A stretch of 64,000 bases of DNA from Haloprofundus halobius (lineage in GTDB: Archaea; Halobacteriota; Halobacteria; Halobacteriales; Haloferacaceae): the NCBI RefSeq assembly GCF_020097835.1, contig NZ_CP083666.1, forward strand, positions 2,294,001 through 2,358,000, written 5' to 3'. Below are positions 2,416 through 46,116 of the stretch, one piece after another (within the stretch, counting starts at the first letter, position 1; each line of letters begins with the position of its first letter). The notes beneath the pieces are model-generated. The model did no database searches. It was not told the DNA's origin and saw only the letters and a list, made by a program, of their open reading frames with translations. The position numbers and the translations under genes were made by a program.

Positions 2416-2451
2416 CCTCGGGGCGGACGGCCGCCGCGGACGAGTCGCGGA

Positions 2452-2496
2452 ACACAGACAGACGAAACACGGACAGACGAAATACTGACAGACGAT
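2452..2496 (+). repeat. 15-bp tandem repeat, three copies, just before a start codon
   Basis: Three consecutive 15-base units (2452-2466, 2467-2481, 2482-2496) share the core ACAGACGA. The last unit runs into the ATG at 2495. The copies differ at two or three positions each. The repeat occupies the likely 5' leader of the 468-residue membrane protein. Confidence 0.8.
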
Positions 2497-4221: not shown

Positions 4222-4255
4222 TCCGCCGTAGCGGTGGCTATCGTGGCGTAGCCTG

Positions 4256-4489: not shown

Positions 4490-4595
4490 GTTCGTTGATA
4501 CCACAGAGAGGCACTTCAACCGTCGGTTCGTGTTCCGGAGCGTCGCCGTAGCCACGCCGGAACGCCGCCACAGTTACTCCGGAGCGTCGCCGTCG

Positions 4596-4865: not shown

Positions 4866-4879
4866 GTCGACCTTCCCCC

Positions 4880-5140: not shown

Positions 5141-5151
5141 TCTCTGTCACC

Positions 5152-8531: not shown

Positions 8532-8539
8532 TGGTACCA
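8532..8539. promoter_or_regulatory. TGGTACCA palindrome touching coxB start
   Basis: An 8-base perfect palindrome lies directly before the coxB ATG (minus strand). The same 8-mer is the centre of the longer palindrome at 9238-9253. It could be a repressor site or chance. Confidence 0.3.
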
Positions 8540-8686
8540 CTCAACCAAGTGTAACGAGACTAGCTGTCCTATTTACCGTTTTGTGAGGTGAACGAGACAG
8601 TCAGACGAGGAGAGGAATGCGCGCGGGAAACGTCGGGAACGTCGGAAGTGTCGAATTCGACGAAGGTGAAGGCGTGAAATTGGCTC

Positions 8687-9211
8687 TCAGACGTCGTGCT
8701 GTGGAATACCGATGGTCCGGTCGAGCACCGAACCGAGCGTCACGCCGTAAACCCAGTGCGCAAGAAGCGAGAAGAGGAGGTAGAGGACGACGGTCACGGC
8801 TCCCCCGGAGGGCCAAAACGCCGGGACGAACCCGAACCAGAATATCGTCGCCAAGGACGCGCCGCGGACTGCCCTCGGGCGCTCTGGTGGCAGAAACGCC
8901 CCGACGACGAGAAACACGAGCGGTAGCACGACGGTCCCCCCGAGACCGAACAGGACGATACCGAGCGTCAGCGTCGGTTCGACGCCGAAGAATCCGGCGA
9001 GACCGGCGAACCGCGTCACGGGTTCGGTCTCGAAGAGGCCGAACACCGCCGGGACACCGACGAGTACCGGTAACATCAACACCGTCCCGAGCAGTCCGCC
9101 GGCCATCGCGACGACGACAACGCGAATCGTAATTGGAATCGCTGCCTCACCGACGACCGCCTCGTCGACGGTCGTGCTCTCTGACTCGCTTACGCCTCCG
9201 TTCGTCGCCAT
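8687..9211 (-). CDS. Four-helix membrane protein upstream of coxB
   Basis: 174 residues; after a soluble N-terminus of about 25 residues come four hydrophobic helices (about 28-50, 68-105 as two, 140-160). Ends IGIPQHDV. The chosen ATG at 9211 starts MATNGG; a longer frame would begin in the AT-rich promoter. It lies 155 bases upstream of coxB on the same strand and its promoter contains a long palindrome whose core recurs at coxB. It may be a cox accessory protein; I do not recognise the family securely. Confidence 0.6.
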   Translation of the reverse strand: MATNGGVSESESTTVDEAVVGEAAIPITIRVVVVAMAGGLLGTVLMLPVLVGVPAVFGLFETEPVTRFAGLAGFFGVEPTLTLGIVLFGLGGTVVLPLVFLVVGAFLPPERPRAVRGASLATIFWFGFVPAFWPSGGAVTVVLYLLFSLLAHWVYGVTLGSVLDRTIGIPQHDV

Positions 9212-9237
9212 ACTAGATACTACTCGACGGACAATGT

Positions 9238-9253
9238 TAAATGGTACCATTTA
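9238..9253. promoter_or_regulatory. 16-base palindrome in the promoter of the 8687-9211 gene
   Basis: TAAATGGTACCATTTA is a perfect palindrome 26 bases upstream of the ATG at 9211 (minus strand). That is the distance expected for a TATA element of a leaderless haloarchaeal gene, and its A/T-rich arms could serve as one. A regulator bound here would block TBP. Seen directly; function inferred. Confidence 0.45.
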
Positions 9254-9504
9254 CCAATACACCCGTGTCTCTCGGGTGGTGACGTACACTACTGTGCGCA
9301 GACGCCGGCTGTCGCTCTGGCGCAGACATCGGTTGTGCTTCGCCGGCCGCACTCGCGCCCGCGAGAGGAATAGTGGGGCTGACGTCCACGTGGGGCTGCC
9401 GCTTCGCCGCAGCGACCCGCGCGTTCAAGTGGGTTGCTCTCGGTAGCTCCGTCCATGAATCTGCCGACCGGCCCGAACCAACGCAGACCCGAGGTGACTG
9501 TCCC

Positions 9505-11796
9505 GTGAGCGACGGTCCGAACACCGACACCGAGAGCGAGGTGGGCAGCGACACAGACGCGGACGAAGCCCAGATTCGCGCGCTCGACGACGCGACGATT
9601 CGGCAAATCGCGGCGGGCGAAGTGGTCGAACGCCCGGCCTCCGTAGTGAAGGAACTCGTCGAGAACAGCCTCGACGCCGACGCCTCGCGCGTCTCCGTCG
9701 CCGTCGACAACGGCGGGAGAGACGGTATCCGCGTCCGCGACGACGGCGAGGGGATGACCGAACCGAACCTCGAACGCGCCGTCGAGAAACACACGACGAG
9801 CAAGATACGCGACATCTCTGACCTCGACGCCGGCGTCGGGACGCTCGGCTTCCGGGGCGAGGCGCTGCACACGATCGGCGCGGTGTCGCGGCTCACCGTC
9901 CGGTCGAAACCGCGCGAGGGCGGTACTGACGGCGCTCCGAGCGGCGCTGGAGCCGAACTCACCGTCGAGGGCGGCGAGACGGGCGAGACGCGGCCCGCAG
10001 GTTGTCCGGCCGGGACGACCGTCGAAGTCGCCGACCTCTTCTTCAACACGCCCGCCCGCAAGAAGTTCCTCAAGACCGACCCCACCGAGTTCGACCACGT
10101 CAACACCGTCGTCACGCAGTACGCGCTCGCGAACCCCGACGTCGCAGTCTCGCTCGAACACAACGGGAGGGAGGTGTTCGCCACCGAGGGCAACGGCGAC
10201 CTATCCTCCGCAGTACTGGCCGTCTACGGCCGCGAGGTGGCCGAGGCGATGGTCCGCGTCGAGTACGACGCCGGGGGACCCGGCCCCGTCGAGTCGGTGT
10301 CGGGCGTCGTCAGCCACCCCGAGACGACCCGCGCCGGGCGCGAGTACCTCTCGACGTTCGTCAACGACCGCTACGTCACCGCCGCGACGCTCCGTGAAGC
10401 CGTACTCGACGCCTACGGCGGCCAACTCGCTCCCGACCGCTACCCCTTCGCCGTCCTGTTCGTCGACGTCGAACCCGACGCCGTCGACGTGAACGTTCAT
10501 CCGAGGAAGATGGAGGTCCGGTTCGACGACGAGTCGAGCGCCAAGCGCGCCGTCACCGACGCCGTCGAGGACGCGCTGTTGGACCACGGCCTGATTCGGT
10601 CGTCCGCGCCGCGCGGCCTCTCCGCGCCCGACGAGGCGGAAGTTCGGCCCGGTGAGAGAGACGAAGCGGAGGTCGTCGGCGGCGCGGGGACGACCCACGA
10701 ATCGGCGAGTGACGTCGCCGGACGGACGAGTCGCGTCGATAGGCGAGCGACGCGGGTTGGCGACGAGGAAGCGAGTGTGGCCCCCGAAACGAACGAGCGC
10801 GCGAATCCGTCCGACAGCGGGTCGTCGCGGCCGCCTCGAAACGCCGACTCGTCGTCCGAGGACGGAGCCTCGGAGACGGCGACGACGAACGCCCGCTCGG
10901 CACGGCCGTCACGGGCCGAGCAGGAGACGAGCGCGTCCGAGGCGGACAGCGACACGGCGGAGACACCGTCCGACGCGGTGCGACCGATCGTCGTCGATTC
11001 GACGCCCGAGACCGCCCGAAACGCCGAACGCGAACAGTCGTCGTTCGCGTCGACCGGTTCGGAGACGGAAGCGAGCGCCGAGAACGACGCAGACCGGCGA
11101 CTGTCGGGCGTCACCGCGCCGACGACGCAGCGGACGCTCACCGGCGACGACGCGACGCCGGAGACGGTGTTCGAGAGTCTGCCGCGGATGCGCGTCCTCG
11201 GCCAGTTGCACGAGACGTACGTCGTCGCGGAGACGCCTGCCGGTCTGGTGCTCATCGACCAGCACGCCGCCGACGAGCGCGTCAACTACGAGCGCCTGCA
11301 GAACGAACTCGCCGGCGACACGCCGACACAGGCGCTCGCGGACCCCGTCGAGTTGGAGTTGACCGCGCGTGAGGCAGCGCTGTTCGAGGAGTACGCCGAC
11401 GCGCTGGCGCAGGTCGGCTTCCACGCCGGACGTAGCGGCGAGCGTCGCGTCGAAGTCCGGACGGTTCCCGCCGTCTTCGACGCGACACTCGAACCGGAGT
11501 TGCTCCGCGACGTGGTGAGCGCGTTCGTCGCCGAAGAAGACGACGGCGGCGAGCGGACCGTCGACGCCGTCGCCGACTCGCTGCTGGCGGATTTGGCGTG
11601 CTACCCCTCGATTACGGGCAACACGTCGCTGACCGAGGGGTCGGTCGTCGAACTGCTGGAGGCGCTGGACGCCTGCGACAACCCGTACGCTTGCCCGCAC
11701 GGTCGACCCGTCGTCATCGCGTTCGACCGCGACGACATCGAAGCCCGATTCGAGCGCGATTACCCGGGGCACGCCGGGCGGCGCGCCGAGGAGTAG
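9505..11796 (+). CDS. mutL: DNA mismatch repair protein MutL
   Basis: 763 residues. The GHKL ATPase domain shows VVKELVENSLDA (residues 47-58), DDGEGM (79-84) and GTLGFRGEAL (about 112-121). A long acidic, Ser-rich linker (about residues 370-550) leads to a C-terminal dimerisation domain with the endonuclease motif DQHAADERVNYE, an ACYPSI segment and CPHGRP, the metal-binding set of nicking MutL proteins. It would nick the strand to be repaired after mismatch recognition. The start is taken as GTG 9505, preceded by GAGGTGA. No mutS is adjacent, unlike the usual mutS-mutL pairing. Confidence 0.95.
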   Translation: MSDGPNTDTESEVGSDTDADEAQIRALDDATIRQIAAGEVVERPASVVKELVENSLDADASRVSVAVDNGGRDGIRVRDDGEGMTEPNLERAVEKHTTSKIRDISDLDAGVGTLGFRGEALHTIGAVSRLTVRSKPREGGTDGAPSGAGAELTVEGGETGETRPAGCPAGTTVEVADLFFNTPARKKFLKTDPTEFDHVNTVVTQYALANPDVAVSLEHNGREVFATEGNGDLSSAVLAVYGREVAEAMVRVEYDAGGPGPVESVSGVVSHPETTRAGREYLSTFVNDRYVTAATLREAVLDAYGGQLAPDRYPFAVLFVDVEPDAVDVNVHPRKMEVRFDDESSAKRAVTDAVEDALLDHGLIRSSAPRGLSAPDEAEVRPGERDEAEVVGGAGTTHESASDVAGRTSRVDRRATRVGDEEASVAPETNERANPSDSGSSRPPRNADSSSEDGASETATTNARSARPSRAEQETSASEADSDTAETPSDAVRPIVVDSTPETARNAEREQSSFASTGSETEASAENDADRRLSGVTAPTTQRTLTGDDATPETVFESLPRMRVLGQLHETYVVAETPAGLVLIDQHAADERVNYERLQNELAGDTPTQALADPVELELTAREAALFEEYADALAQVGFHAGRSGERRVEVRTVPAVFDATLEPELLRDVVSAFVAEEDDGGERTVDAVADSLLADLACYPSITGNTSLTEGSVVELLEALDACDNPYACPHGRPVVIAFDRDDIEARFERDYPGHAGRRAEE

Positions 11797-11878
11797 CGTC
11801 GCTGGAGGGGAGTCCACGACCGGGGCATATCCGCCGGAACTCCCCGAACTTATGTGACCCTCGCAAGAACGGGGGAGC

Positions 11879-12838
11879 ATGACCGACCTCGTGACGTTCG
11901 GCGAGACGATGCTTCGCCTCTCGCCGTCGCAGGGAGAGCGACTGGAGACGACCGACGAACTGGACCTTCGCATCGGCGGCGCGGAGAGCAACGTCGCCGC
12001 CGCGGTCTCCCGTCTCGGATTCGACTCCGTGTGGCTCTCGAAACTGCCGGACTCGCCGCTGGGTCGGCGCGTCACCGTCGAACTGCAGAGCCACGGCGTC
12101 GAGACGCCCGTCGCGTGGAGCGACGCCGACGCGACGCGGATGGGCACCTACTACATCGAACACGGCGGCGCGCCGCGCGGAACGAACGTCATCTACGACC
12201 GCGCCGACGCCGCCGTCACCACCGTCTCGGCCGACGAACTCCCGACCGAGCGCATCCGCGAGAGCGAAGCGTTCTACACCAGCGGCATCACCCCGGCGCT
12301 GTCGGACGCCGCGGCGGAGGCGACGGCGACGCTTCTGGCGACGGCGAACGACGCCGGAACGACGACGGTGTTCGACCTGAACTACCGCTCGAAGCTCTGG
12401 AACCACGAGGAGGCGGCCGAGGGGTACCGCGCGCTGTTCGACGCCGTGGACGTACTCGTCGCCGCCGAACGCGACACCCGCGAGGTGCTCGGCCGAGACG
12501 GCAGCCCCGAGGATCTCGTCTTCGGACTCGTCGACGACTACGACTTCGAGACGGTCATCCTCACCCGCGGCGAGGAGGGCGCGCTCGCGCTCCACGACGG
12601 CGAGACGTACGAGCAACCGGTGTTCGAGGCGGAGACCGTCGACGCCGTCGGTACGGGCGACGCCTTCGTCGGCGGCTTCCTCGCGGCGCGACTCGACGGC
12701 GAGAACGTGGCGACCGGACTGGAGTACGCGGCGGCGACGGCGGCGCTGAAGCGGACCATCGACGGCGACATCGCCGTCGTTACGCGCGCGGAAGTCGACG
12801 CCGTCGTCGGCGAAGACGATGCGAGTATCTCGCGGTAG
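11879..12838 (+). CDS. kdgK: PfkB-family sugar kinase, probable 2-keto-3-deoxygluconate kinase
   Basis: 319 residues. The N-terminus [11 protein letters not shown] and the GGAESNVA segment match KDG kinases of the PfkB family; the second PfkB signature [15 protein letters not shown] (about residues 253-267) carries the catalytic base Asp. The family phosphorylates 2-keto-3-deoxygluconate (and often the galactonate form) with ATP, the last specific step of the semi-phosphorylative Entner-Doudoroff route of halophiles. GGGGGAG precedes the ATG. It stands alone, 82 bases after mutL. Substrate inferred from resemblance. Confidence 0.85.
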
Positions 12839-12971
12839 AGCGGTCGTCGGGAGCGACCGACTCGCGTGCGATCGAAAATCGGGACTCGTCGGTCGTCCTG
12901 ACAGATAGTCATAGGCGAAATTGTACGTGGCCGAAAGATACATTCCGGAGCCGCTAGTCACGGGTGGTGTG

Positions 12972-14186
12972 ATGAGACGCGTAGCGGCAGTAGTGGCGGT
13001 ACTGGTCGTACTATCGACCGCAGCACCGGCTGTCAGCGGACAGTCCGGCGGCGCCGAGAGCGACGCCTACGCCGGGGCGAACGTCTCGTTCGAGACGAAC
13101 GGGTCGGCCATCGCCGACTACGCCGTCGGCGGCGACACGGTGCTGGAGTCGGTCGTGGTGCAGTCACAGAGCGAGGCCAAGCGCGACGTCGGCGTCGGCG
13201 CCGACACGTCGCTGTCGACGGTCTCGTCGGTCGACTGGAGCGCGCTGTCGATGGAGTCGAAGACGGAAACCAGCGCCAGCGTCGAAGCCGAAAGCGGCGC
13301 GAGCCTCGACGCGCACGACAACGAACACGGCATCCTCGTCGTCGACGCGGGCGAGGAGGAGGGGCAGTTCGTCCACGCGAACGTGAGTGACGACGCCGAC
13401 GCCGACGCCGAGGGCGACCGGGTCGTCGTGACGACGGCGAACGGGACGACCGGCGCGTTCGTCGTCGTCGGCGACGGCGAAGTGACCGTCACCGAGGACG
13501 GTAACGTCGGGGCCCAACTCGGCGCGGACGACAAGTTGGTGTTCCGTTCGTACGAGGGCGAACGCTCCGAGGACGACAGGGAGCAGGAGCGACTCGTCTC
13601 CGAAGGGACGGCCGCCGCCGAGGTGCACGTGATGCAGCGAGACGGCGAGACGGTGAGCGACGTCGTCTCGTACGCCGACGGCACGACCGTCGAGACGGCC
13701 GAACAGAGCGAGAACGCCGTCCGAATGACCGTCGACCGAAGCAGCGATGAGGGGACGGTGCTGCTCACGAGCGTCTCCGAGACCGCCGAAAACGTCTCGG
13801 TGACCGTCGACGGCGAGGCGGCCGCGGAGGCCTCCTCGTACGGCGAACTCGAGAGTGCCGCCAACGGCGGTGACAGCTCCGCCTACATGGTGTCGGAGGG
13901 GAGCGCCGACGCGAGCGCCGACGTACTCGTCGCGGTGAATCACTTCTCCGAGCGGGAGATCGCAGTCGACGGTAGCGACGAGGGGACGACCGACGACGGT
14001 AGCGGCGAGGAGACGACCGACGGCGATAGCAGCGGCGAGGAGACGACCGACGGGGAATCGACCGACAACGAGACGGGCGACGACGGCGACGCCACGACTT
14101 CGTCGACGGAGATGCCCGGCTTCGGCGTCGGTGCGGGACTGCTCGCCGTCGTACTGAGCGCGTTCGCGCTCGTTCGACGGGCGTAA
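12972..14186 (+). CDS. PGF-CTERM surface glycoprotein
   Basis: 404 residues. A signal peptide (residues 1-25, ending AVSG) is followed by an all-beta-looking, Asp/Glu/Ser-rich ectodomain, then a Thr/Asp/Glu/Ser-rich stalk (about 345-378) typical of O-glycosylated spacers. The C-terminus is a tripartite sorting signal: PGFGVG, a hydrophobic helix and RRA. PGF-CTERM proteins are cut by archaeosortase A and lipid-anchored. Several N-x-S/T sites suit N-glycosylation. The role of the ectodomain is unknown. Confidence 0.85.
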   Translation: MRRVAAVVAVLVVLSTAAPAVSGQSGGAESDAYAGANVSFETNGSAIADYAVGGDTVLESVVVQSQSEAKRDVGVGADTSLSTVSSVDWSALSMESKTETSASVEAESGASLDAHDNEHGILVVDAGEEEGQFVHANVSDDADADAEGDRVVVTTANGTTGAFVVVGDGEVTVTEDGNVGAQLGADDKLVFRSYEGERSEDDREQERLVSEGTAAAEVHVMQRDGETVSDVVSYADGTTVETAEQSENAVRMTVDRSSDEGTVLLTSVSETAENVSVTVDGEAAAEASSYGELESAANGGDSSAYMVSEGSADASADVLVAVNHFSEREIAVDGSDEGTTDDGSGEETTDGDSSGEETTDGESTDNETGDDGDATTSSTEMPGFGVGAGLLAVVLSAFALVRRA

Positions 14187-14293
14187 AACGGAGGACGGGC
14201 GAAGAGACGGAGGTGCGTCGTCGGCCGACGACGTCGTTCGTCGGCGCCTACGACCGCCGTAACCGCTAATTCGGTGGCGTGGGATAGTTCGGT

Positions 14294-15691
14294 ATGCACG
14301 TCGCCATCCTCGGTGCCTACGGGAGCGCGGGCGTCGCTGCCGCCGAACGCCTCGCCGACGCGGACGAAGTCGACCGCCTGACGCTTCTCGACGGCGGCGA
14401 CCCGGGAGGCGGACTCTGTATCCTCCGCGGCTGTATGCCCTCGAAGGAGGTGCTGTCGGCGGCCGAACATCGCTACCACGCCCGCCACGACGAACGCCTC
14501 GTCGGCGAACCACCGGAACTCGACCTCGACCGAGTGGTCTCGGCGAAAGACGCGCACATCCACAACTTCGCCGAGCACCGCCGGAACGCCGTCCACGCGC
14601 TGGCGACCCACGACGGCGTCGAGTTCGTCGGCGAGAACGCTCGCTTCGCCGGCGCGCGGACACTCGCCGTCGGCGACCGGGAACTGACGCCCGACTACGT
14701 CGTCGTCGCCACCGGGTCGACGGTGAACGTCCCCGACACGCCCGGACTCGACGAGGTGCCGTACTCGACGAGCGCCGACGTACTCGACGCCACCGAGTTC
14801 GGCGACTCGGGTGTCGTGATGGGGTTCGGCTACGTCGGCGTCGAACTCGCCGCGTACCTCTCGGAAGCAGGTGTGGACCTCACCGTCGTCGAGCACGACG
14901 ACAGACCGCTCGACGAAGCCGACCCGGAGTTCGGCGACGACCTGCTGGCGCTCTACCGCGAGGAGTTCGGCATCGACGTGCGGACGAACGTGAGCGAACA
15001 GCGCGTCGAGCGGACCGACGAGGGCGGCGTTCGGCTGTATCTCACCGGCGGGAGCGACGAGGAACTCGTCGAAGCCGACCAGTTGTTTCTCTTTACGGGA
15101 CGGCGACCCAACGTCGACGGGCTGAATCTGGAAGCGGCGGGACTGCAGGCCGAGAAAGGGTGGGTCGACGAGACGATGCAGGCGCGAGACGACGACCGGC
15201 TGTTCGTCGTCGGCGACGTGAACGGACACGAACCCATCCTCCACGTCGCCAAGGAACAGGGCTTTCTCGCCGCCGACAACGTACTGGCGCACGCGGCCGG
15301 TGAGGAACTCGAACCGTACGAGAACGTCCACCACCACGTCATCTTCTCGGGGGCGGCGGTGTACCCGTACGTCCGCGTCGGACACTCCGAGCGGTCGGCC
15401 GACGATGCAGGGTTGAACTACGTCAGCGTCTCGCGGGAGGCCAGCGACGACGGCGTGTTCAAGACGAAGTACGCGACGCGGGGACGGGCGAAACTCGTCG
15501 TTGACGCCGACGAGGGCACAGTATTGGGTTACCAGGGCTTACACTACCACGCCGACGTGATGGCGAAGACGATGCAGGTCGTCGTCGAACGCGGGATGCG
15601 CGTCGACGAGATCCCGGACCGCGCGTACCACCCGACGACGCCCGAGATAATCGACGGCCTACTCCGGGCGGCGAAGTCGGAACTCCGCTGA
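14294..15691 (+). CDS. FAD-dependent pyridine nucleotide-disulfide oxidoreductase
   Basis: 465 residues, the size of dihydrolipoamide dehydrogenase or mercuric reductase. The redox disulfide is Cys42/Cys47 in GLCILRGCMPSK. The NAD(P) fold is at about 175-180 (GFGYVGVE), the second FAD motif near LFVVGDVNG, and the C-terminal catalytic His-Glu pair is in HPTTPEII. The N-terminal dinucleotide loop is atypical (LGAYGSAG), lacking the usual GxGxxG. No 2-oxo-acid dehydrogenase genes are near, so it need not be the lipoamide enzyme; the true substrate is open (thiol, CoA-disulfide, metal or other). Confidence 0.8.
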   Translation: MHVAILGAYGSAGVAAAERLADADEVDRLTLLDGGDPGGGLCILRGCMPSKEVLSAAEHRYHARHDERLVGEPPELDLDRVVSAKDAHIHNFAEHRRNAVHALATHDGVEFVGENARFAGARTLAVGDRELTPDYVVVATGSTVNVPDTPGLDEVPYSTSADVLDATEFGDSGVVMGFGYVGVELAAYLSEAGVDLTVVEHDDRPLDEADPEFGDDLLALYREEFGIDVRTNVSEQRVERTDEGGVRLYLTGGSDEELVEADQLFLFTGRRPNVDGLNLEAAGLQAEKGWVDETMQARDDDRLFVVGDVNGHEPILHVAKEQGFLAADNVLAHAAGEELEPYENVHHHVIFSGAAVYPYVRVGHSERSADDAGLNYVSVSREASDDGVFKTKYATRGRAKLVVDADEGTVLGYQGLHYHADVMAKTMQVVVERGMRVDEIPDRAYHPTTPEIIDGLLRAAKSELR

Positions 15692-21911: not shown

Positions 21912-23264
21912 ATGACCGACCTCGACAGCGTCGTCGCGGCCGTCCGCGAGCGCATCGACCCCGACGCCGACGAACGCGCCGCCCTCGCGGCGGCCGTCGA
22001 CGCCCTCCGCGAGCGTGTCGAGGCCACCGTCTCCGACCTCCCCGTCGAGGCCGACGCCGTTCAGGTCGGTAGCACCGCCCGCGGGACGTGGCTCTCCGGC
22101 GACCGCGACATCGACCTGTTCGTCCGCTTCCCGCCGGCGCTCCCGCGCGAGGAGCTCGAACGCTACGGACTGGAAATCGGCCGCGCCGTCCTTCCGGGCG
22201 GTCACGAGGAGTACGCCGAACACCCGTACGTCAAGGGCGACTTCGAGGGGTTCGACGTGGACCTAGTCCCCTGTTACGACGTGCCCGAGGCGACCGACAT
22301 CCAGTCGGCAGTCGACCGGACGCCCTTCCACAACGCCTACCTCGACGCCAAACTGGACGACGACCTTCGAGCCGACGTTCGCGTGTTCAAACGCTTCCTC
22401 AAAGGCATCGGTGCGTACGGCAGCGACCTCCGCACGAAGGGGTTCTCCGGCTACCTCTCGGAACTCCTGATTCTGGAACACGGCGGCTTCGAACCGCTGC
22501 TTCGCGCCGCCGCCGACTGGCACCCGCCCGTCGAGTTCGACCCCGAAGATCACGGCCGGGCGACGTTCGACGACCCGCTCGTCGTCATCGACCCGACCGA
22601 CCCGGAGCGAAATGTCGCCGCCGTGCTCTCGGCGGCGAACGTCGCCCGCCTGCAGCACTACGCCCGCGAGTTGCTCGCCGAACCGCGCGAAGCGTTGTTC
22701 TTCCCGCCGGACGAGCAGTCGTACTCGCGGGTCGACGTCCGCGAGCAGCTCTCGCGGCGCGGGACCCACCCCGTCGCCGTCGTCTTCGACGCGCCCGAAA
22801 TCGTCGAAGACCAACTCTACCCGCAGTTAGAGAAGTCGCTGTCGGGCGTCGTCTCCGAACTCGACCGCCGCGGCTTCGCCCCGCTGCGGGCGACGGCGAT
22901 GGCGGACGGCCGCGCGGTGCTGTTCGTCGAGTGCTCGGTCGCCGAACGCTCGGCGTTTGCGCGTCACGACGGCCCGCCGGTCGCCGTGCGACAGCACGCG
23001 ACCGGTTTCTTCGAGAAGTACCAGGGAGCCGACGACGTGTACGGCCCCTTCATTGACGGTGACCGGTACGTCGTCGAGCGCGAGCGCGCGTTCACGACGC
23101 CCGAGGCGCTCCTGTCGAGCGACGCGCTGTTCGACGTGGCGCTGGGCGCGCAGGTGGGGTCGGTACTGGGAGAACGGTACGAGGTGCTCGTCGGCGACGA
23201 CGTGGCGACGCTGGCCGACGAGTTCGGCGACGAACTCCGCGCTCACTTCGAACCGCGGCCGTAG
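21912..23264 (+). CDS. cca: CCA-adding enzyme (archaeal class I tRNA nucleotidyltransferase)
   Basis: 450 residues, the usual archaeal size. The nucleotidyltransferase motif is GSTARGTWLSGDRDIDLF (residues 53-70) with catalytic Asp66/Asp68; a third Asp lies in GFDVDLVPCY. The rest fits the palm, body and tail of class I enzymes, including KRFLKGIGAYGSDLRTKGFSGYL split over about residues 157-180. It adds or repairs the 3' CCA of tRNAs, none of which is encoded in the tRNA genes here. It starts divergently from the two tRNA genes just upstream. Confidence 0.95.
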   Translation: MTDLDSVVAAVRERIDPDADERAALAAAVDALRERVEATVSDLPVEADAVQVGSTARGTWLSGDRDIDLFVRFPPALPREELERYGLEIGRAVLPGGHEEYAEHPYVKGDFEGFDVDLVPCYDVPEATDIQSAVDRTPFHNAYLDAKLDDDLRADVRVFKRFLKGIGAYGSDLRTKGFSGYLSELLILEHGGFEPLLRAAADWHPPVEFDPEDHGRATFDDPLVVIDPTDPERNVAAVLSAANVARLQHYARELLAEPREALFFPPDEQSYSRVDVREQLSRRGTHPVAVVFDAPEIVEDQLYPQLEKSLSGVVSELDRRGFAPLRATAMADGRAVLFVECSVAERSAFARHDGPPVAVRQHATGFFEKYQGADDVYGPFIDGDRYVVERERAFTTPEALLSSDALFDVALGAQVGSVLGERYEVLVGDDVATLADEFGDELRAHFEPRP

Positions 23265-27732: not shown

Positions 27733-27744
27733 TTCACTTCGTTC

Positions 27745-27798
27745 ACGACCTGACGAGCCTCACGCTCGCGTTGCTCGCGTGAGACTCCGTCAGGACGT
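27745..27798. repeat. Hairpin with arms copied from the tRNA-Arg 3' end
   Basis: Left arm ACGACCTGACGAG (27745-27757) is a near-perfect inverted copy, and the right arm CTCCGTCAGGACGT (27785-27798) an exact direct copy, of the tRNA-Arg tail at 27720-27733. Between them an inner stem CTCACGC/GCGTGAG (27759-27765 / 27777-27783) closes a small loop. The right arm looks like an att-type tail duplicate. Confidence 0.7.
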
Positions 27799-39993: not shown

Positions 39994-40067
39994 GGGCTCG
40001 TGGTCTAGCTGGTTATGACGTGGCCTTTACAAGGCCGAGGTCGGTGGTTCGAATCCGCCCGAGCCCA
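39994..40067 (+). tRNA. tRNA-Val(UAC)
   Basis: 74 bases. Acceptor GGGCTCG/CGAGCCC, discriminator A; anticodon loop TTTACAA between GGCC-type stems, anticodon TAC; T-arm GGTGG/CCGCC. Its 3' part is copied at 40157-40180 and, degenerate, at 42643-42662. Confidence 0.93.
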
Positions 40068-40108
40068 CTAATTCTGTCCGAGCGATAGAGCACGAATTCG
40101 TGACCCGA

Positions 40109-40174
40109 GGGCGATTCCGAACCTGACGACGAGTGAGCGTAGCGAACGAAGTCGGCGTGGTTCGAATCCGCCCG
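40109..40174. repeat. Hairpin with arms copied from the tRNA-Val T-arm; direct tail copy to 40180
   Basis: Left arm GGGCGATTCCGAACC (40109-40123) is an inverted copy of the T-arm, right arm GGTTCGAATCCGCCC (40159-40173) the direct copy; they pair with one bulge on each side. The inner CGAC/GTCG pair closes a loop with GAGTGAGCGTAGCGAACG. The direct copy continues to 40180 and differs from the tRNA tail by one base. Confidence 0.75.
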
Positions 40175-40492
40175 CGCCCATCCATACTCTGCACGGTTTT
40201 CAGCCAACGGATCCGGACTCTGCAGTTCTTCTATCCCTTATTTTCGAGTTTGAAGGTCGGAGAGCACTTCCAGCCACTTTGGAGTCCGACCATTCGTTCT
40301 CCCGGTTCGCTCCTGTCTCGCCTTCACTGAGGGTCGACAGCGCTGTAGAAGGTAATCGATCGCCGATTGGCGATTCTCTCGGTGAGTAGTCGCCGTTCGT
40401 GCTGGAGTCACGCTCCCCTATCGAGCCCTTTCGAGAGTGTCCTCGATACGATCGTCACGGGCTCGTTTGCGCTCGCCAAATGCTGCGAAACA

Positions 40493-40519
40493 GCTATATT
40501 AGTGGTAGCTAATATTAGC
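40493..40519. promoter_or_regulatory. arsR promoter/operator
   Basis: GCTATATTAG (40493-40502) and the perfect 12-base palindrome GCTAATATTAGC (40508-40519) lie 11-37 bases before the arsR ATG. CTATATTA can be the TATA element for a leaderless start at 40530. The palindrome is the size and place expected for an ArsR-type repressor site blocking polymerase entry. Observed sequence; function inferred. Confidence 0.6.
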
Positions 40520-40529
40520 ATACGATAAA

Positions 40530-40901
40530 ATGAGTCAGCAATCGTCTGCACCCGACGAGAACGAGACACCTAGAACGGACAGAGCGTGTTGTACTGCAGC
40601 ACACACCCTGACCGAGTCAGAACTCGCCTCGGACGTCCAACTCCTCTCGGCACTCGGAAACGACACACGGTATGAAGCACTCAGACTCATCGCCGACAGC
40701 GATGGTGAGGTCTGCGTCTGTGAACTCGAGCCCGCACTCGGTGTCAGCCAGAGCGCCATCAGTCAAGCACTCTCGCGGTTGTACACTACTGGACTCGTCT
40801 CACGACGCAAAGAAGGCCGTTGGCGATACTATGCAGCCACCCCACGAACAGAGACTATTCTGAACACGCTTGATGAGACTCGAGGTGAGTCCAGTGAGTG
40901 A
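40530..40901 (+). CDS. arsR: ArsR-family metalloid-responsive repressor
   Basis: 123 residues. A winged helix (about 38-110) with GEVCVCELEPALGVSQSAISQALSRL (split over 59-85). The CVC pair at the start of helix 3 is the thiolate As(III)/Sb(III) site of classical ArsR (ELCVCDL type); another CC pair sits near residue 20. It would leave its operator when arsenite binds. First gene of the arsR-arsM unit; its end overlaps the arsM start by 8 bases. Codon third positions are richer in A/T than in neighbouring core genes. Confidence 0.9.
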   Translation: MSQQSSAPDENETPRTDRACCTAAHTLTESELASDVQLLSALGNDTRYEALRLIADSDGEVCVCELEPALGVSQSAISQALSRLYTTGLVSRRKEGRWRYYAATPRTETILNTLDETRGESSE

Positions 40902-41712
40902 ACAGAGCCAATCGTTTGGAACTTCGTCTGGGTTAGCTCCCGACGAACAACGTCGTGCGGTACGACAACGATATGCCCGTATTGCGAGCGAAAATTCGAG
41001 TTGCTGTGGAGACTCTGACAGCTGTTGTGGCGACCAGAGCGAACTGAATCGCCAACTGGGGTACTCCGAGAGTGACGCGACTACTGTTGCCGAGGGCGCA
41101 AATCTGGGACTTGGCTGTGGGAATCCGAATGCGATCGCCTCTCTTCGACCCGGTGAAACCGTTCTTGACCTTGGATCCGGTGCTGGCTTCGATTGCTTCC
41201 TCGCAGCGCAGGAAGTCGACGAAACGGGACGTGTCATCGGTGTCGACATGACGCCAGAGATGATCGAGAAAGCCAGAGCCAACATCGAGAAGAACGACGC
41301 GACGAACGTCGAGTTCCGACTCGGCGAGATCGAACACTTACCCGTTGCTGACGGGAGAGTAGACGTCATTATCTCGAATTGCGTGGTGAACCTTTCGCCG
41401 GACAAACAGCAGGTGTTCGATGAAGCCTATCGCGTTCTTCAACCTGGAGGTCGACTCGCGATTTCTGACGTTGTGTCGACTGCTGAATTGCCAGACGATG
41501 TTCACGCTGACCCGGAGTCAGTCGCCTCCTGTGTCGCTGGCGCATCACCCATCTCCGAGCTCGAGCGGATGCTGTCTGCTGTAGGCTTCGAGCGGATCCG
41601 GATTCAGTCGAAAGAAGAGAGTGAGCAGTTCATCAGCGAGTGGGATGATGAACACGACGTCAGCGACTACATCGTCTCTGCGACGATTGAAGCGGTTAAA
41701 CCGGCCCAGTAG
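40894..41712 (+). CDS. arsM: Arsenite S-adenosylmethionine methyltransferase
   Basis: 272 residues. The SAM-binding motif is TVLDLGSGAGFDCFLAAQ; ISNCVVNLSPDKQQVF and ESVASCVAGASP carry the family's As(III)-binding cysteines, together with the Cys in LGLGCGNPNAIASL. An N-terminal SSCCGDSDSCCGD stretch has two more Cys pairs, as in many archaeal ArsM. It methylates arsenite to mono-, di- or trimethyl arsenicals. I start it at GTG 40894, overlapping arsR; ATG 40873 is an alternative. Same transcript as arsR. Confidence 0.93.
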   Translation: MSEQSQSFGTSSGLAPDEQRRAVRQRYARIASENSSCCGDSDSCCGDQSELNRQLGYSESDATTVAEGANLGLGCGNPNAIASLRPGETVLDLGSGAGFDCFLAAQEVDETGRVIGVDMTPEMIEKARANIEKNDATNVEFRLGEIEHLPVADGRVDVIISNCVVNLSPDKQQVFDEAYRVLQPGGRLAISDVVSTAELPDDVHADPESVASCVAGASPISELERMLSAVGFERIRIQSKEESEQFISEWDDEHDVSDYIVSATIEAVKPAQ

Positions 41713-41777
41713 CGACAACCTGCGTACTGACCAGCAGTATTATCTCTGCTCTCCTTCGAGACAAGACGTCCCTTCCC

Positions 41778-42203
41778 ATGTCCGCCGAAACCAGTATCGC
41801 GTTCGTGTGCGTCCAAAATGCGGGTCGTTCACAGATGGCGGCGGCGTTCGCCGAACGTGAAGTTGAAGAACGCGATGTCGGCGACCGAATACGGATTCTG
41901 ACCGGAGGAACCCAGCCTGCCGACCGTGTTCACGATATCGTGGTACAAGCGATGGACGAAGAAGGATTCAATCTCGCTGGTAATCCCCCACGCGAAATCA
42001 CTCCCGATGAGTTAGAGAACGTCGATATCGTCATCACAATGGGCTGCTCTGCTGACAACATTTGTCCGATGACGTGGCGGGGCGACGCTCGCGATTGGGC
42101 GCTCGACGATCCACACAGACAAGACCTCGAATCGGTACGCGAAATCCGAGACGAAACCAAGCGACGAGTGAGTGCTCTGTTCGACGAGCTCGGTACTCCG
42201 TAA
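41778..42203 (+). CDS. arsC: Arsenate reductase, LMW phosphatase type
   Basis: 141 residues. The P-loop CVQNAGRSQM (11-20) holds the nucleophile Cys; the second and third redox Cys are in TMGCSADNICPMTW, the thioredoxin-linked arrangement. DARDWALDDPHRQ carries the general-acid Asp. It reduces arsenate to arsenite, which ArsM then methylates. 65 bases after arsM, same strand, probably same unit. The frameshifted relative at 20920-21362 lacks the third Cys. Confidence 0.92.
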   Translation: MSAETSIAFVCVQNAGRSQMAAAFAEREVEERDVGDRIRILTGGTQPADRVHDIVVQAMDEEGFNLAGNPPREITPDELENVDIVITMGCSADNICPMTWRGDARDWALDDPHRQDLESVREIRDETKRRVSALFDELGTP

Positions 42204-42885
42204 ACCACCACTAGCATACCGCTGTTATCTAGGTAGTATTACAGCGCTTTCTTCATACAGGTAGCTGTTGCCGGACGTAGATCCTCGAACTCACAAGTCT
42301 GACGGATGGATGCCGGTGCGTCAATTCGCTCGATTTGGAGATCTGAAGAATCAAGAGCCTAGATTATGTGACGGGGTTGTGATTCAGACTCAGATGTCTG
42401 TGCGCTTTCAGACTCTCCACACGCGATTCGTCGAGGCGCAATTGTTCACCACCTGAGTGAGGGCTTCGACTAGACACCGCGAGTGAGCGGGTCGGTGTCT
42501 CCGTCTCAGCACTTTGGAAGGACTACGACCCACGCACAGAGTGACGTCAACGAGGGGATCGACACAGTATGTGCGAGTCCAGAAACAGCTGCGAGGGTGA
42601 TTCGAAGCAGAGAGTGAAGCGAACGAAGTGAGCGGAACGATCGTGGTTCGAATCCGCCTGAGTTGACTAATGTCTTTTTTGATAGAGCTTTGATTGCAGT
42701 TACTTACCTAGTAACGGATGATACATCAATTTTCCCATGGTTCTCTCAGAAACGGTTCGCTACACGGTGATTTTCGTCGTCGGTCGACAATCAGTTCGTG
42801 ATAGATCCCATGTATTTTCTCACTACAACAGTAACTAATATATACAAGTGAATTATGCAGACTATCTGGTAGTAGTGATAATCTA
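42204..42885. other. Right flank of the ars cassette, non-coding
   Basis: 682 bases. 42204-42590 shows only short frames without coding character. 42596-42670 has the tRNA-Val tail copy described separately. 42720-42885 is strongly A/T-rich, with TAATATATAC near 42836-42845 as a TATA candidate for the next gene. Confidence 0.6.
42596..42670. repeat. Degenerate tRNA-Val tail copy in a hairpin; right border of the ars cassette
   Basis: GGTGATTCGAAGC (42596-42608) is the inverted arm and GTGGTTCGAATCCGCC (42643-42658) the direct copy of the tRNA-Val T-arm, with GAAGCGAACGAAGTGAGCGG in the loop. The direct copy continues GAG...ACTAAT, which also matches the bases right after the tRNA gene. This is what a worn att site would look like. 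Confidence 0.7.
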
Positions 42886-43440
42886 ATGCTCCGAAACGTA
42901 CTCGCGGGCGTCGGCGTCCTGACGTTAGTCGTCGCCGCGGGCATCGGTGGCGCGCTGGCACTCGGTCTCACACCAGGCGATATCGTCGACGGCACAACCG
43001 ATAAGGTCGGCGACAACGCACCCGAAGACGTGCAAACCGACGGTGGCAGCGACGACGCGAGCGGAGCGTCGACGAGTGGAGACGACAGCGCCGTACAGGA
43101 CGCGTACGACCAACCGCTCCGGTTTTCGGTCGGCGAGATCGACGAGTGCGGGACGACGTGTCGGGACGTAACGGCGCACGTGAAGAACACCGGCAACGAG
43201 TCCGTCAACGACGTCGACGTGACGGTTCGTCTCTTCGCCGACGACGACGAGGTGTGGGACGGAAGCGTCGAAGTTGGCTCTGTCGACGCCGCGGAGACGC
43301 AGGAGCAGACCATTCGCGTCGAACTCGGCTACACGGACGCGTACAAGATCAAGCAGAACGACGGCTACGTCACGGTTCGCACGACGGTGACGACGGCCGA
43401 CGGGACCTTCGAGTTCGAAGAGCGACGGAAAGTCGCGTGA
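42886..43440 (+). CDS. Exported or anchored protein with beta-sandwich domain
   Basis: 184 residues. One N-terminal hydrophobic helix (4-28) acts as signal anchor; an Asp/Ser/Gly-rich spacer (about 35-70) leads to a domain of about 110 residues with VTAHVKNTGNESVNDVDVTVRLF (split over 93-115), the pattern of FxLYD/CARDB-like Ig-type domains. Two Cys (ECGTTC) may form a disulfide outside. Function unknown. It lies between the ars cassette and tRNA-Phe. Confidence 0.7.
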   Translation: MLRNVLAGVGVLTLVVAAGIGGALALGLTPGDIVDGTTDKVGDNAPEDVQTDGGSDDASGASTSGDDSAVQDAYDQPLRFSVGEIDECGTTCRDVTAHVKNTGNESVNDVDVTVRLFADDDEVWDGSVEVGSVDAAETQEQTIRVELGYTDAYKIKQNDGYVTVRTTVTTADGTFEFEERRKVA

Positions 43441-43507
43441 GAACGGTCGGCACGCCGTTGGTGTGTTCCGAAATCCTTTTTGCTCCCATGCGCATCCATC
43501 AGAGTGC

Positions 43508-43581
43508 GCCGCCTTAGCTCAGACTGGGAGAGCACTCGACTGAAGATCGAGCTGTCCCCGGTTCAAATCCGGGAGGCGGCA
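43508..43581 (+). tRNA. tRNA-Phe(GAA)
   Basis: 74 bases. Acceptor GCCGCCT/AGGCGGC, discriminator A; anticodon stem TCGA/TCGA with loop CTGAAGA, anticodon GAA; T-arm CCCGG... with GTTCAAATC loop. The last 24 bases recur three times in the next 1.6 kb. Confidence 0.93.
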
Positions 43582-43655
43582 TTTTCCTGCGAACCAACGA
43601 AGGAGCGGAGCGACTGAGGCGGTGAGCTGTGAAAATGTGAACCGACCGATTTGAA
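43582..43655. repeat. 75-base module, copy A (after tRNA-Phe)
   Basis: This stretch and 43870-43944 are aligned over 74-75 bases with about three quarters identity, both starting TTTTCC right after a tRNA-Phe tail and both ending GATTTGAA. So tail plus module was duplicated as a unit. Within copy A, CATTTTC (43580-43586) pairs with GAAAATG (43631-43637). Confidence 0.75.
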
Positions 43656-43717
43656 TCACGGAACGAGCGAACAGCCGTGAACGAAGTTCCGGAGGTTCAA
43701 ATCCGGGAGGCGGCATT
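43648..43717. repeat. tRNA-Phe tail copy 2 with inverted arm
   Basis: GATTTGAA (43648-43655) is inverted to TTCAAATC (43696-43703); inside, GGAAC (43660-43664) pairs with GTTCC (43686-43690) and CACGG with CCGTG. The direct tail copy 43694-43717 is identical to the tRNA over 24 bases. Confidence 0.8.
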
Positions 43718-43722
43718 CTTCT

Positions 43723-43774
43723 GATTCCGACATCCGAGCGAGGCGTCTCGTCGCCGAGCGACTCAGTCGGAATC
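43723..43774. repeat. Hairpin GATTCCGAC/GTCGGAATC
   Basis: A perfect 9-base stem (43723-43731 and 43766-43774) encloses a 34-base loop with CCGAGCGAGGCG and GCCGAGCGACT. Same design as the tail hairpins but with arms unrelated to the tRNA. Confidence 0.7.
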
Positions 43775-43793
43775 TGTCGATGTCACCGACCGC

Positions 43794-43871
43794 GATTTGA
43801 ACCCGGCGAGTCGCAACCGCGAGCGAAGCGAGCGGTCCGTCTCGACTCGATTCAAATCGGGAGGCGGTATT
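43794..43871. repeat. tRNA-Phe tail copy 3 with inverted arm
   Basis: Left side GATTTGAAC...CGAGTCG (43794-43813), right side CGACTCGATTCAAATC (43843-43858): a long stem with one internal bulge. The loop reads CGCGAGCGAAGCGAGCGG. The direct tail copy runs 43849-43871 and has lost one C and changed two bases. Confidence 0.8.
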
Positions 43872-43944
43872 TTCCCACGAATCAACGAGGGAGCGAACGG
43901 ACCGAGTCGGTGAGCCGTGAAGATGTGATCCAGACGGATTTGAA
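43870..43944. repeat. 75-base module, copy B
   Basis: Counterpart of 43582-43655, following tail copy 3 as copy A follows the tRNA itself. It ends GGATTTGAA, the start of an inverted arm, but no direct tail follows here; the next tail is beyond the MBL gene. Confidence 0.75.
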
Positions 43945-44117
43945 GTAGACAAGTCGCAGCCCGGAAGTGCGGGGAGTTCGGTTCGACGACCGCTCTGACT
44001 TCGTTCGCCGACGCGTCGTGGACCCGATTCGTCCCACGTCAGAAGATTTACTCACCCCCGCGCAGTTCGCTCCGACATGGTTCGACACGACGCGGTCGAC
44101 GCGGCGCGGGGTTCGCG

Positions 44118-44972
44118 ATGACGATCACGAGCAGCTGGGGCGAGTGGTGGGCGCGTGAGGAGATCAACGGCACGGAGGTCGAAGACCACGTCTCGCTGTG
44201 GTACCTCGGCGTCGCAGGCTGGGGAATCCGGTCGCCGGAGACGGCAATCTACATCGACCCGTACTTCAGCACGGAGCGGGACCGCGAGTACGTCGCACGG
44301 ATGTCCCCGGTACCGATGGAGCCCGCCTGGGTCGACGAGTGCGACGCGGTCTTCTGCACGCACGACCACCGGGATCACTTCTGGCCGCCTTCCTTCGGGC
44401 CGCTGCTGGAGGACGGTGCGTCCGTGCACGCCCCGGCGGAGTGCTACGAGAACTTCGACGTGAGCGAGATCGAAGCGGAGAAGCGGACGGTCGTCGAGCC
44501 CGGTGACAGCGTCGAGGTCGGCGACCTCACGATCCACGTCCGCGGCGGCTACGATCCGGACGCGAACGGTACGGTGACGTACGTCATCGAGCACGAGACG
44601 GGGAGGGTCTTCCACGGCGGTGACAACCGTCCCTGCGAGGCGTTCGAGGAGATCGGCGAGGAGTTCGACATCGACATCGGGATGCTCTCCTACGGGACAA
44701 ACGCCCGCAAACTGAACGACGAGGGGGAGGTCGTCACGCGGAAGCTCTACAACGATCCCGACGAAATCGTGGAGGCGACGAACGCGCTCGGGATCGATCG
44801 ACTCGTCCCCGAGCACTGGCGGCGGTGGCGTTCCATCCACGCGGATCCGGGCGCTCTGGAGAAGGCGGCGGCGACGTTCGAGTACCCCCACGTGATCGAA
44901 GGGATCGAGGTCGGCGATCGGCTCCGCCTCGACCGGCCGGGCGTCGTCCCGCCGACACGTCTCAGCAGGTGA
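44118..44972 (+). CDS. MBL-fold metallohydrolase, UlaG-like
   Basis: 284 residues. The metallo-beta-lactamase metal site is CTHDHRDHFWP (HxHxDH type, about residues 78-88); an YIDPYF strand and GIRSPET precede it, HGGDNRP and VPEHWRRW later supply further ligands. It resembles the UlaG/ascorbate-6-phosphate lactonase-like subgroup. The substrate is unknown. It lies alone between tRNA-Phe tail copies 3 and 4, so it may be cargo of an integrated element. Codons contain more GGATC/GATC-type choices than neighbours, but I did not compute bias. Confidence 0.8.
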   Translation: MTITSSWGEWWAREEINGTEVEDHVSLWYLGVAGWGIRSPETAIYIDPYFSTERDREYVARMSPVPMEPAWVDECDAVFCTHDHRDHFWPPSFGPLLEDGASVHAPAECYENFDVSEIEAEKRTVVEPGDSVEVGDLTIHVRGGYDPDANGTVTYVIEHETGRVFHGGDNRPCEAFEEIGEEFDIDIGMLSYGTNARKLNDEGEVVTRKLYNDPDEIVEATNALGIDRLVPEHWRRWRSIHADPGALEKAAATFEYPHVIEGIEVGDRLRLDRPGVVPPTRLSR

Positions 44973-45043
44973 AGCTGGGTTCGAGCGGTCGTGCGTCATC
45001 TGCTGATTCGAAACGCAAGCAGAGACGCGGAATCGTCGTGTGT

Positions 45044-45129
45044 TCGAGCTGTCCCCGTACCCGTGAGTGCAGCGAACGGATGCTCGGGGAGTCGACTCGC
45101 CGGCGGTTCAAATCCGGGAGGCGGTATTT
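45044..45129. repeat. tRNA-Phe tail copy 4, split by an insert
   Basis: TCGAGCTGTCCCCG (45044-45057) equals the tRNA-Phe bases from the anticodon stem into the T-arm. Then 46 bases not from the tRNA follow (about 45058-45103, with CCCCG/CGGGG able to pair around GTGCAGCGAACGGATG), after which the T-loop and acceptor half resume to 45129. Confidence 0.75.
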
Positions 45130-45202
45130 CTGTGATTTCGAGCCGACGAGCGGAGCGAGCGCTCGACTCCGAGTTCTGAGACTCCGCGTCGTCGCACAGA
45201 AA
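45127..45202. repeat. Hairpin TTTCTGTG/CACAGAAA
   Basis: A perfect 8-base stem (45127-45134 and 45195-45202) with a 60-base loop containing GACGAGCGGAGCGAGCGCTCG. It begins at the end of tail copy 4, just as hairpins begin at the ends of other tail copies. Confidence 0.6.
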
Positions 45203-45336
45203 CCCGTTTCCGTGCTACGTGAACTCCACTCAGTCCTCGGAGAGCGCATCGAGTAAGTCAGCTATCCGAGCGCGTCGACAGCAGCGTTTTGCCCGTCGCC
45301 GACCTACTCAGTCCGGGTCGTCGCACCCACACGACT

Positions 45337-46116
45337 ATGAGCTTCTCAGCCACACCTCCGAAATCAGACCGCCTCTCGGAACGCATCGAGGCGGGAATCG
45401 ACCGCGTGAACTCGGCGACGGACAGTCAGTCCGAACTGACTGGGACGGCCAAAGAGCTGTTCGACGTGCTCGTTGCGACCGAGATGCTCCTGGAGAGCAT
45501 CGATTTGGAGCGGTTACGTCACGTCGTCGACATCGAACAACTCCCGACGATCGTCGACTTCGACCGCCTCGCAGACGCGATCAGGGAGCACGACCCCGAT
45601 TTAGCCTTCGACCTCAGTAACGTAGAGCAGGTCGTCGACAGACGGGAACTGTGGGCCTCGGTCGATCTTCTCGGGGTCGCGAAAGCAAAGCGGCGGCTGG
45701 AGAGCGAACTCGAGGACCTCCCGGGGAGTAGCGGTTCCTTCGAGGTCGACAGCGACTCGCAAGCCGCCGAAGATGCCGAGGCGTTCGTCTCCTCGCTCCG
45801 TTCGGAGGCCAGAGAGGTGACAATCCAACAGGAGTTCACGAAGAAGTTGGAAGTCGCTCGAAGAGCGGTCGTACAGCAACACGTGGCCTTCGAGCGACTC
45901 TACGCGTCCGAAGAGATGCGCTCGCGAAACCCGAGCGAGCGGCAGAGAGGTCGAAACCCGACGGCCGTCTCGTTGCGTCCGTCGGGGCCGCTTGCAGACG
46001 GCGTTTCGACGCGAGTATCGACGGTTCCGGCGGCGGTTCCGTACTCGAAAATCGATGCGCTTCCGCGAATCTACGGTCGGCGGTGGAGGACGGTCAAGGC
46101 TGAGCGGAGACGATAG
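45337..46116 (+). CDS. Uncharacterised helical protein
   Basis: 259 residues, mostly charged helices (possible coiled coil near 120-200, with EFTKKLEVARRAVVQQHVAF). The N-terminal half has a repeated LE.(L/I)..V.D...LP.IVDFDRL pattern. The C-terminus turns Arg/Ser/Pro-rich and ends IYGRRWRTVKAERRR. I do not recognise the family. ATG 45337 is chosen over frames starting upstream in the repeat region. Confidence 0.6.
   Translation: MSFSATPPKSDRLSERIEAGIDRVNSATDSQSELTGTAKELFDVLVATEMLLESIDLERLRHVVDIEQLPTIVDFDRLADAIREHDPDLAFDLSNVEQVVDRRELWASVDLLGVAKAKRRLESELEDLPGSSGSFEVDSDSQAAEDAEAFVSSLRSEAREVTIQQEFTKKLEVARRAVVQQHVAFERLYASEEMRSRNPSERQRGRNPTAVSLRPSGPLADGVSTRVSTVPAAVPYSKIDALPRIYGRRWRTVKAERRR

Follow-up and report, generated by a model that had tools for sequence, protein, structure and literature searches.

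Hairpin units with copies of the host tRNA tail form arrays behind tRNA genes of haloarchaea and may be inserting cassettes

Behind the tRNA-Phe(GAA) gene of Haloprofundus halobius lies a row of short, gene-free hairpin units punctuated by copies of the tRNA's own 3' tail. The locus belongs to a 64-kb stretch of the H. halobius genome (G000, C1:2294001-2358000), which we analyzed and refer to as the window. The tRNA-tail repeats are neither an ordinary integration scar nor particular to tRNA-Phe; similar arrays stand behind many tRNAs of H. halobius and of the three congeners (G001, G002, and G004) with which we compared it. We see about an even chance that they represent a family of non-coding hairpin cassettes, spread across the haloarchaea, that reside at the 3' ends of tRNA genes, inserting there and copying the tail.

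Results

The tRNA-Phe array in the window

All features described here lie on the forward strand. The tRNA-Phe gene spans positions 43508 to 43581, with its own tail (tRNA positions 53 to 74) at 43560 to 43581. Directly behind it, unit 1 (43582 to 43693) consists of a spacer that we call P1, an antitail (GATTTGAA at 43648), and an inner hairpin, P2. Tail copy 2 follows at 43694 to 43715 and is identical to the tRNA tail at 22 of 22 positions. Unit 2 (43716 to 43847, antitail at 43794) is followed by tail copy 3 (about 43848 to 43869), which is decayed and falls below 16/22 in ungapped comparison because, by eye, one base has been deleted and two changed. The intervals before tail copies 2 and 3 measure 112 and 132 bp and are gene-free. 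Unit 3 (43870 to 43990, right end approximate) is broken, with an antitail (GGATTTGAAG) at about 43936 and no tail directly behind it; its start, taken together with the tail, matches unit 1 at 82% over 74 nt. The antitail GATTTGAA recurs in each unit of the array, at 43648, 43794, and 43937. The P1 of the unit 2 type resembles the P1 behind tRNA-Asp (88% between tRNA-Asp of G000 and tRNA-Phe of G001). Farther out lie a gene for a metallo-beta-lactamase (MBL)-fold hydrolase (44118 to 44972), a remnant of a different, anticodon-type unit (45044 to 45104), in which tRNA positions 40 to 53 occur again at 45044 to 45057, and tail copy 4 (45105 to 45126), which matches at 21/22 positions.

Searching both strands of the 64 kb with the 22-nt tail, we found that the only other ungapped matches of at least 16/22 were the tails of two other tRNAs. 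Twenty base-shuffled windows gave seven matches at that threshold in all on the forward strand (exact ones not tallied apart). The tail repeats reported in a preliminary description of this DNA are real: one exact, one decayed, and one with a single mismatch. That description also had the copies becoming less exact with distance, which fits the decay of copy 3 but not the farthest copy, which is better than the third.

Own-tail copies behind many tRNAs

We next scored as an own-tail copy, for each tRNA, any match of at least 11/12 to its 12 nt after the T-loop, a segment that varies from one tRNA to another, at 20 to 320 bp downstream, using for H. halobius the flanks of the 47 tRNAs listed by the Rfam model. 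Across the four genomes (192 tRNAs in all), own-tail copies stood behind 19 of 47 tRNAs in G000, 26 of 47 in G001, 12 of 47 in G002, and 17 of 51 in G004. The copies are specific to the tRNA that they follow. Foreign tails from the same genome, with at least 4 mismatches in the 12 nt, matched in 15 of 8,730 trials, and the own tail was found upstream of none of the 192 tRNAs. Outside the haloarchaea, 20 stretches from the same phylum gave an own-tail copy at 1 of 51 tRNAs; foreign tails had 87 matches in 2,090 trials there, which tRNA clusters may account for. The single case outside the haloarchaea was a tRNA-Cys (L182) with an own-tail copy (11/12) about 90 bp downstream.

Anatomy and folding of the units

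Read from the tRNA end to the tail copy, a typical unit comprises the spacer P1, which in some units is a hairpin, an antitail, roughly 8 to 13 nt long, whose sequence complements the host tRNA's T-loop and T-stem, the inner hairpin P2, and a direct copy of the tail. We extracted 73 units, 46 to 266 nt long and mostly 80 to 140. Of these, 45 had a clear antitail (score of at least 15/26, 25 to 60 nt before the tail copy), and its T-loop type was that of the host tRNA in 37, another type in 2, and none recognized in 6. Because those 45 units were picked by own-arm match, the ranking of arms over all units and the count of hairpins behind tRNAs are fairer tests. Mean arm scores over the 73 units were 17.2 for the own arm, 13.7 for other arms, and 10.9 in shuffled units, with the own 13-nt arm best or tied among 29 arms in 26 units. 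A hairpin combining the own T-arm with an antitail was found behind 47 of 162 tRNAs, compared with 30 of 480 when another tRNA's arm was used.

The inner hairpins of the 45 picked units were more stable than shuffled sequences (mean z = -4.2; 91% below -2), whereas an upstream control was not (z = -0.4; 8% below -2). Spacers exceeded shuffles weakly (z = -1.4). In the window, hairpins ranged from z = -1.95 to -3.05, and unit 1 as a whole reached -1.75. An alignment of 28 hairpins contained 22 cells changed on both sides of the stem; shuffles gave 7.8, none of 500 reached 22, and pairing of the stem was lost on sliding. Pairs internal to P2, which played no part in picking the hairpins, changed on both sides in 6, 13, and 13 of the 28 sequences (columns 17-54, 21-50, and 22-49, respectively).

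Stems of this kind would also be expected if the units worked as RNA within the tRNA transcript, as archaeal equivalents of the Escherichia coli RtT RNA. The antitail would then pair either with tail copy 2 or with the T-arm of the tRNA itself, and the trailer hairpins would act in termination, in processing, or as a released small RNA, keeping a fixed architecture while their sequence changed fast. The E. coli tyrT repeats, for which rttR RNA is annotated, likewise have tail copies and a partial antitail, and the accessible part of one source describes Haloferax termination sites with T stretches, some with hairpins (PMC7237163). We nevertheless judge an RNA function to be an unlikely explanation, if one with a real chance of being right. 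A good tail copy is missing at 118 of the 192 tRNAs; the spacers, and unit 1 of the window as a whole, fold only weakly better than shuffles; whole units are present or absent at orthologous tRNAs, a pattern difficult to reconcile with slow change; and the acceptor part of the tail copies has decayed more than the T-arm part (identities of 0.72 to 0.94 versus 0.85 to 1.0, in units picked for a good T-arm).

Two further kinds of unit occur. A shorter kind pairs the acceptor part only, by eye, as behind tRNA-Arg-TCT and tRNA-Ala. In a third kind, found behind tRNA-Phe of five genomes (G011, G016, G028, G033, and G056), tRNA positions from about 25-30 to 52-53 stand before the hairpins, and it is the remnant of such an anticodon-type unit that tail copy 4 closes in the window. 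Inner hairpins can be common to different tRNAs: 17 pairs agreed at no less than 85% across 30 nt (in 3 pairs, both hairpins belong to the same genome), and this is an upper figure because some pairs are slightly diverged orthologs (e.g., tRNA-Arg-CCT of G000 and G004). One inner hairpin stands behind both tRNA-Lys and tRNA-Ser of G004 (96% over 48 nt).

Turnover between congeners

The arrays turn over fast. At tRNA-Phe, the sequence from 43716 onward aligns right behind the tRNA in G001 and G002, so that unit 1 is extra in the window and unit 2 is homologous to the first unit of both congeners. In a comparison that looked for extra units next to the tRNA, clear differences of one unit, where the flank picked up again immediately behind the tail copy, were found at tRNA-Phe, Leu-CAA, Leu-TAG, Gly-CCC (G004 versus the three others), and Gly-TCC, and one at Arg-TCG was seen by eye. 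We are less sure of those at tRNA-Ser and Lys-CTT, whose flanks fall within shared unit families. Comparing G000 with G001, in which the neighboring MATE gene is 90% identical, we found 17 orthologous tRNAs with units in both genomes, of which 12 carried different units and 5 homologous ones, and 11 with a unit in one genome only.

A fuller pairwise count, which leaves out differences at the far end of the arrays, yielded 159 cases with a unit on at least one side. In 18 of them (12 tRNAs), one or more extra units preceded a shared segment. The first segment was homologous in 30, differed at the same index in 2, and conflicted in order in 1 (tRNA-His, G001 versus G004); in the other 108, no homologous segment was in reach. 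A tail copy accompanies each extra unit, as duplication of the target segment would require, a test that does not separate gain from loss. Serial insertion or stepwise duplication at a single tRNA, as first proposed for the tRNA-Phe locus, agrees with the absence of unit 1 from G001 and G002, where the unit 2 homolog lies directly behind the tRNA, yet precise loss would look identical. In our reading the differences would be gains, with the arrays growing in a polar fashion from the tRNA.

Old arrays might instead have been reshaped by unequal recombination between tail copies, gene conversion between the units of different tRNAs, and palindrome-templated mutation, with no transposition at all. 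Tandem near-identical blocks are visible by eye at one locus (L313, units 2/4 and 3/5) and likewise in G016; in several genomes the tRNA-Phe gene and its tail copies share a CGGGG variant, though G140 and G114 list both variants; and copying templated by a hairpin would explain antitails specific to their host. Extra units next to the tRNA, however, are usually unrelated by eye to the neighboring unit, unlike the products of tandem duplication, and inner hairpins common to several tRNAs need a copying route in any case. On balance, we consider recombination alone rather improbable.

Range among haloarchaea and link to tRNA ends

We trained a covariance model on the inner hairpin plus its arms, using 28 hairpins (of 31 listed) from the four Haloprofundus genomes, and scored 150 first-look candidates per genome. 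In the training genomes, 66 matches had E <= 1e-3, and 57 of these followed a listed tRNA at no more than 450 bp and on its strand, in part by construction, since the training hairpins include the T-arm; hairpins lacking a T-arm would escape the model. By eye, seven of the other nine followed a tRNA 3' end that was displaced, decayed, or unlisted; among these seven is the window's tRNA-Val unit, assigned from its tail copy and its G004 ortholog. Of the remaining two, one stood on the opposite strand behind tRNA-Asp, and one had no tRNA. Among 119 genomes of the phylum, scanned with stricter filters, matches occurred in 21 of 22 haloarchaea (none in G009) and in 0 of 97 others, where hairpins unlike those of this haloarchaeal model could escape. 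A further ten haloarchaeal genomes supplied 20 matched regions, which we picked from the listed matches, visible clusters included, rather than at random; 19 contained a tRNA and 18 had own-tail copies, in arrays of up to five units in a row.

We also considered, and rejected, a dispersed repeat residing away from tRNAs. The unit of the window, used as a DNA query, gave 22 listed matches in five genomes, and the ten with E <= 0.005 all lay behind tRNA 3' ends, one of them displaced (the 12 weaker matches were only partly checked). Displaced tRNA tails followed by units do occur in the congeners. At one such site (L251; G004 C1:371000-375500, local positions 2070 to 2260), the 3' half of a tRNA-Gly(TCC) and then units lie about 5.6 kb from the intact gene, and the units seem older than the element that split them off. 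Another G004 region (L159; C1:2083000-2086300) holds a dense tRNA cluster, perhaps viral, with four tRNAs in 0.7 kb by Rfam and seven ARAGORN calls in 3.3 kb.

Integrated elements and the MBL gene

The preliminary description read the tRNA-Phe locus as a nested integration scar. In its usual sense, this label does not suit intervals of 112 and 132 bp without genes, when elements bounded by tRNA-Phe tails in other genomes measure about 8 to 10 kb. Nor are one or a few tRNAs the target: 12 to 26 tRNAs per genome are involved, and inner hairpins are common to different tRNAs. Such elements are real. Checking ten open reading frames (ORFs) from four of eight loci, we found a tyrosine integrase in L107 (G129) and L109 (G055) and a D5-like primase in L106 (G110) and L109. 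Together with the displaced tails of the congeners, these kilobase-scale elements would suit a history in which successive plasmids or viruses integrated at tRNA-Phe and left remnants, the MBL gene being the last cargo. We hold this to be very improbable, and the genome-wide pattern disfavors it, as most units are structured and gene-free, 80 to 140 bp long, and spread over so many tRNAs; as a general cause of the repeats, we reject a scar of integrated elements. Viral carriage was likewise rejected, as the exact 22-nt tRNA-Phe tail was present in no viral contig. A 16-nt hairpin-end pattern did occur in 17 viral contigs, which we judged to be about chance level.

Other arrangements at tRNA-Phe were noted in passing. 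Two loci hold two complete tRNA-Phe genes, 1.9 kb apart in L048 (G031, 4469 to 6412) and 13 kb apart in L059 (G020, 1692 to 14837), and several genomes of genus g28 have paired tail sets about 2 kb apart.

The MBL gene of the window is an intact ORF of 284 amino acids matching Lactamase_B_2 (E = 1.5e-14). Its protein, the only one scanned between tail copies 3 and 4 (other ORFs there overlap the MBL gene or are short), gave no integrase match. One scan found MBL homologs at 15 named loci, of which only that of "Candidatus Halobonum tyrrellensis" is behind tRNA-Phe; there, a tail copy precedes the gene and none occurs in the 6 kb after it. In the tRNA-Phe flanks of 46 genomes, some only 0 to 1.5 kb long, the gene was found in G000 and G022 alone, and examination of about 4.6 kb downstream of tRNA-Phe in four congeners did not reveal it. 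The suggestion that the gene came with tail copy 4 fails on the "Ca. Halobonum tyrrellensis" locus and on this distribution. It looks like separate cargo caught in the array.

Other tRNAs and genes in the window

A second gene cargo at a tRNA tail lies behind tRNA-Val(TAC) (forward strand, 39994 to 40068). On that strand, a unit at 40069 to 40158 is capped by a tail copy at 40159 to 40180 (21/22), and an older unit (42595 to 42666), with its tail copy at 42645 to 42666 (18/22), lies 2.5 kb away behind the cargo. By eye, this older unit is orthologous to a G004 unit that stands directly behind tRNA-Val. Between the new and old units (40069 to 42670) is an ars-like set comprising a low-molecular-weight phosphatase by Pfam and, from reading of the translations, ArsR-like and methyltransferase-like ORFs. 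Behind tRNA-Arg(GCG), a short forward-strand unit (27733 to 27797) ends in a 13-nt acceptor-side tail copy (27785 to 27797). An ARAGORN call of tRNA-Val(CAC) at 23059 to 23151 is absent from the Rfam tRNA list of the genome and is probably false. The next gene past the tRNA-Phe array (45337 to 46113) encodes a protein without a Pfam match and has homologs at the same place in G002 and G004.

Discussion

If the units are inserting cassettes, each would enter directly behind the tRNA, leaving the tRNA whole, and be followed by a fresh copy of the tRNA segment from the T-loop to the discriminator base (about 20 to 22 bp). The inverted T-arm copy inside the cassette would allow the tail copy to fold back around the inner hairpin, and this antitail may arise by snap-back synthesis, the tail being copied across the inner hairpin. 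Later cassettes would insert at the same site next to the tRNA and displace older ones outward, where they decay, while recombination between tail copies would delete or multiply cassettes. Genes could become trapped in the growing arrays, such as the MBL gene at tRNA-Phe and the ars-like set at tRNA-Val.

Several results weigh against this account. A precise deletion between tail repeats could account for each of the one-unit differences. Polarity draws on 18 of the 159 comparisons, which leave out the far ends of arrays, and it is partly built into the search for one-unit differences, which was designed to find tRNA-proximal extras. A clear antitail was present in only 45 of the 73 units, and the own arm ranked best or tied in only 26; the folding and outer-stem pairing counts are also partly built in, since the 45 antitail units and the 28 model hairpins were picked for own-arm match. 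An antitail specific to the host tRNA is not explained by a plain transposon with target duplication, and the strong hairpins could reflect an RNA role instead of mobility. Moreover, no mobilizing enzyme was found. Cas1 was found in 0 of 5 genomes of the genus (13 of 41 overall), and we reject Cas1 or a casposase as the mobilizer within the genus.

It is possible, though somewhat unlikely, that one cross-domain process underlies both the haloarchaeal arrays and the repeats at E. coli tyrT, adding hairpin cassettes at tRNA 3' ends, duplicating the tail, and writing its inverse into the cassette, and thereby amounting to a self-targeting array system able to trap MBL or ars genes. If so, nearly 40% of the tRNA genes in four genomes (74 of 192) would carry a rapidly changing, self-matching array, and the tyrT repeats could be tested as one case of a wider process. 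The process would point to an insertion route aimed at the T-arm and could explain some calls of partial tRNAs or attachment (att) scars in archaeal genomes. Not every tRNA tail repeat should be taken for an integration scar.

We came across no recognizable description of haloarchaeal tail-capped hairpin arrays in the open-licence literature searched, so far as its accessible text goes. CRISPR arrays and casposons duplicate a short target segment at each insertion and keep the newest unit beside a fixed end. Growth of that kind is what we would propose for the haloarchaeal arrays, whose units are hairpins in shared families rather than unique spacers; no Cas1 was found in Haloprofundus. REP/BIME elements and MITEs are short, non-coding palindromic repeats of uncertain mobility. 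The same is said of PATEs in the accessible part of PMC3119063. The haloarchaeal units differ from such palindromic intergenic repeats in being bound to tRNA 3' ends and having arms that match the host tRNA. The att scars of tyrosine-recombinase elements likewise place a direct repeat of the tRNA 3' end at the far end of the insertion, as described in the accessible parts of PMC8371274 and PMC3119063; those elements are kilobases long and bear genes, in contrast to hairpins of mostly 80 to 140 bp found genome-wide.

The nearest precedent is the tyrT/tyrV locus of E. coli K-12 (RtT, RF00391), with tandem units at 178-bp spacing, tRNA tail copies matching at 19 of 22 nt, and a partial antitail in the 110 nt before the tail copy (score of 18/26, with no shuffled control). 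According to the accessible part of PMC4986893, RtT is an RNA released during tRNA processing. The Rfam RtT model matched four E. coli repeats (133 to 138 bits; E = 6e-28 or lower) but none of six haloarchaeal loci (L313, L314, L316, L318, L320, and L329) at E <= 1 and nothing in the window from 43400 to 45400 at E <= 5. The haloarchaeal units tested are therefore of a known kind of architecture, in which a tRNA is followed by a tandem row of units, every one closed by the tRNA tail, without belonging to RF00391 as judged by its curated model. Beyond this shared plan, they stand behind many tRNA species, each with its own tail, fall into several hairpin families, and are polymorphic for presence and absence.

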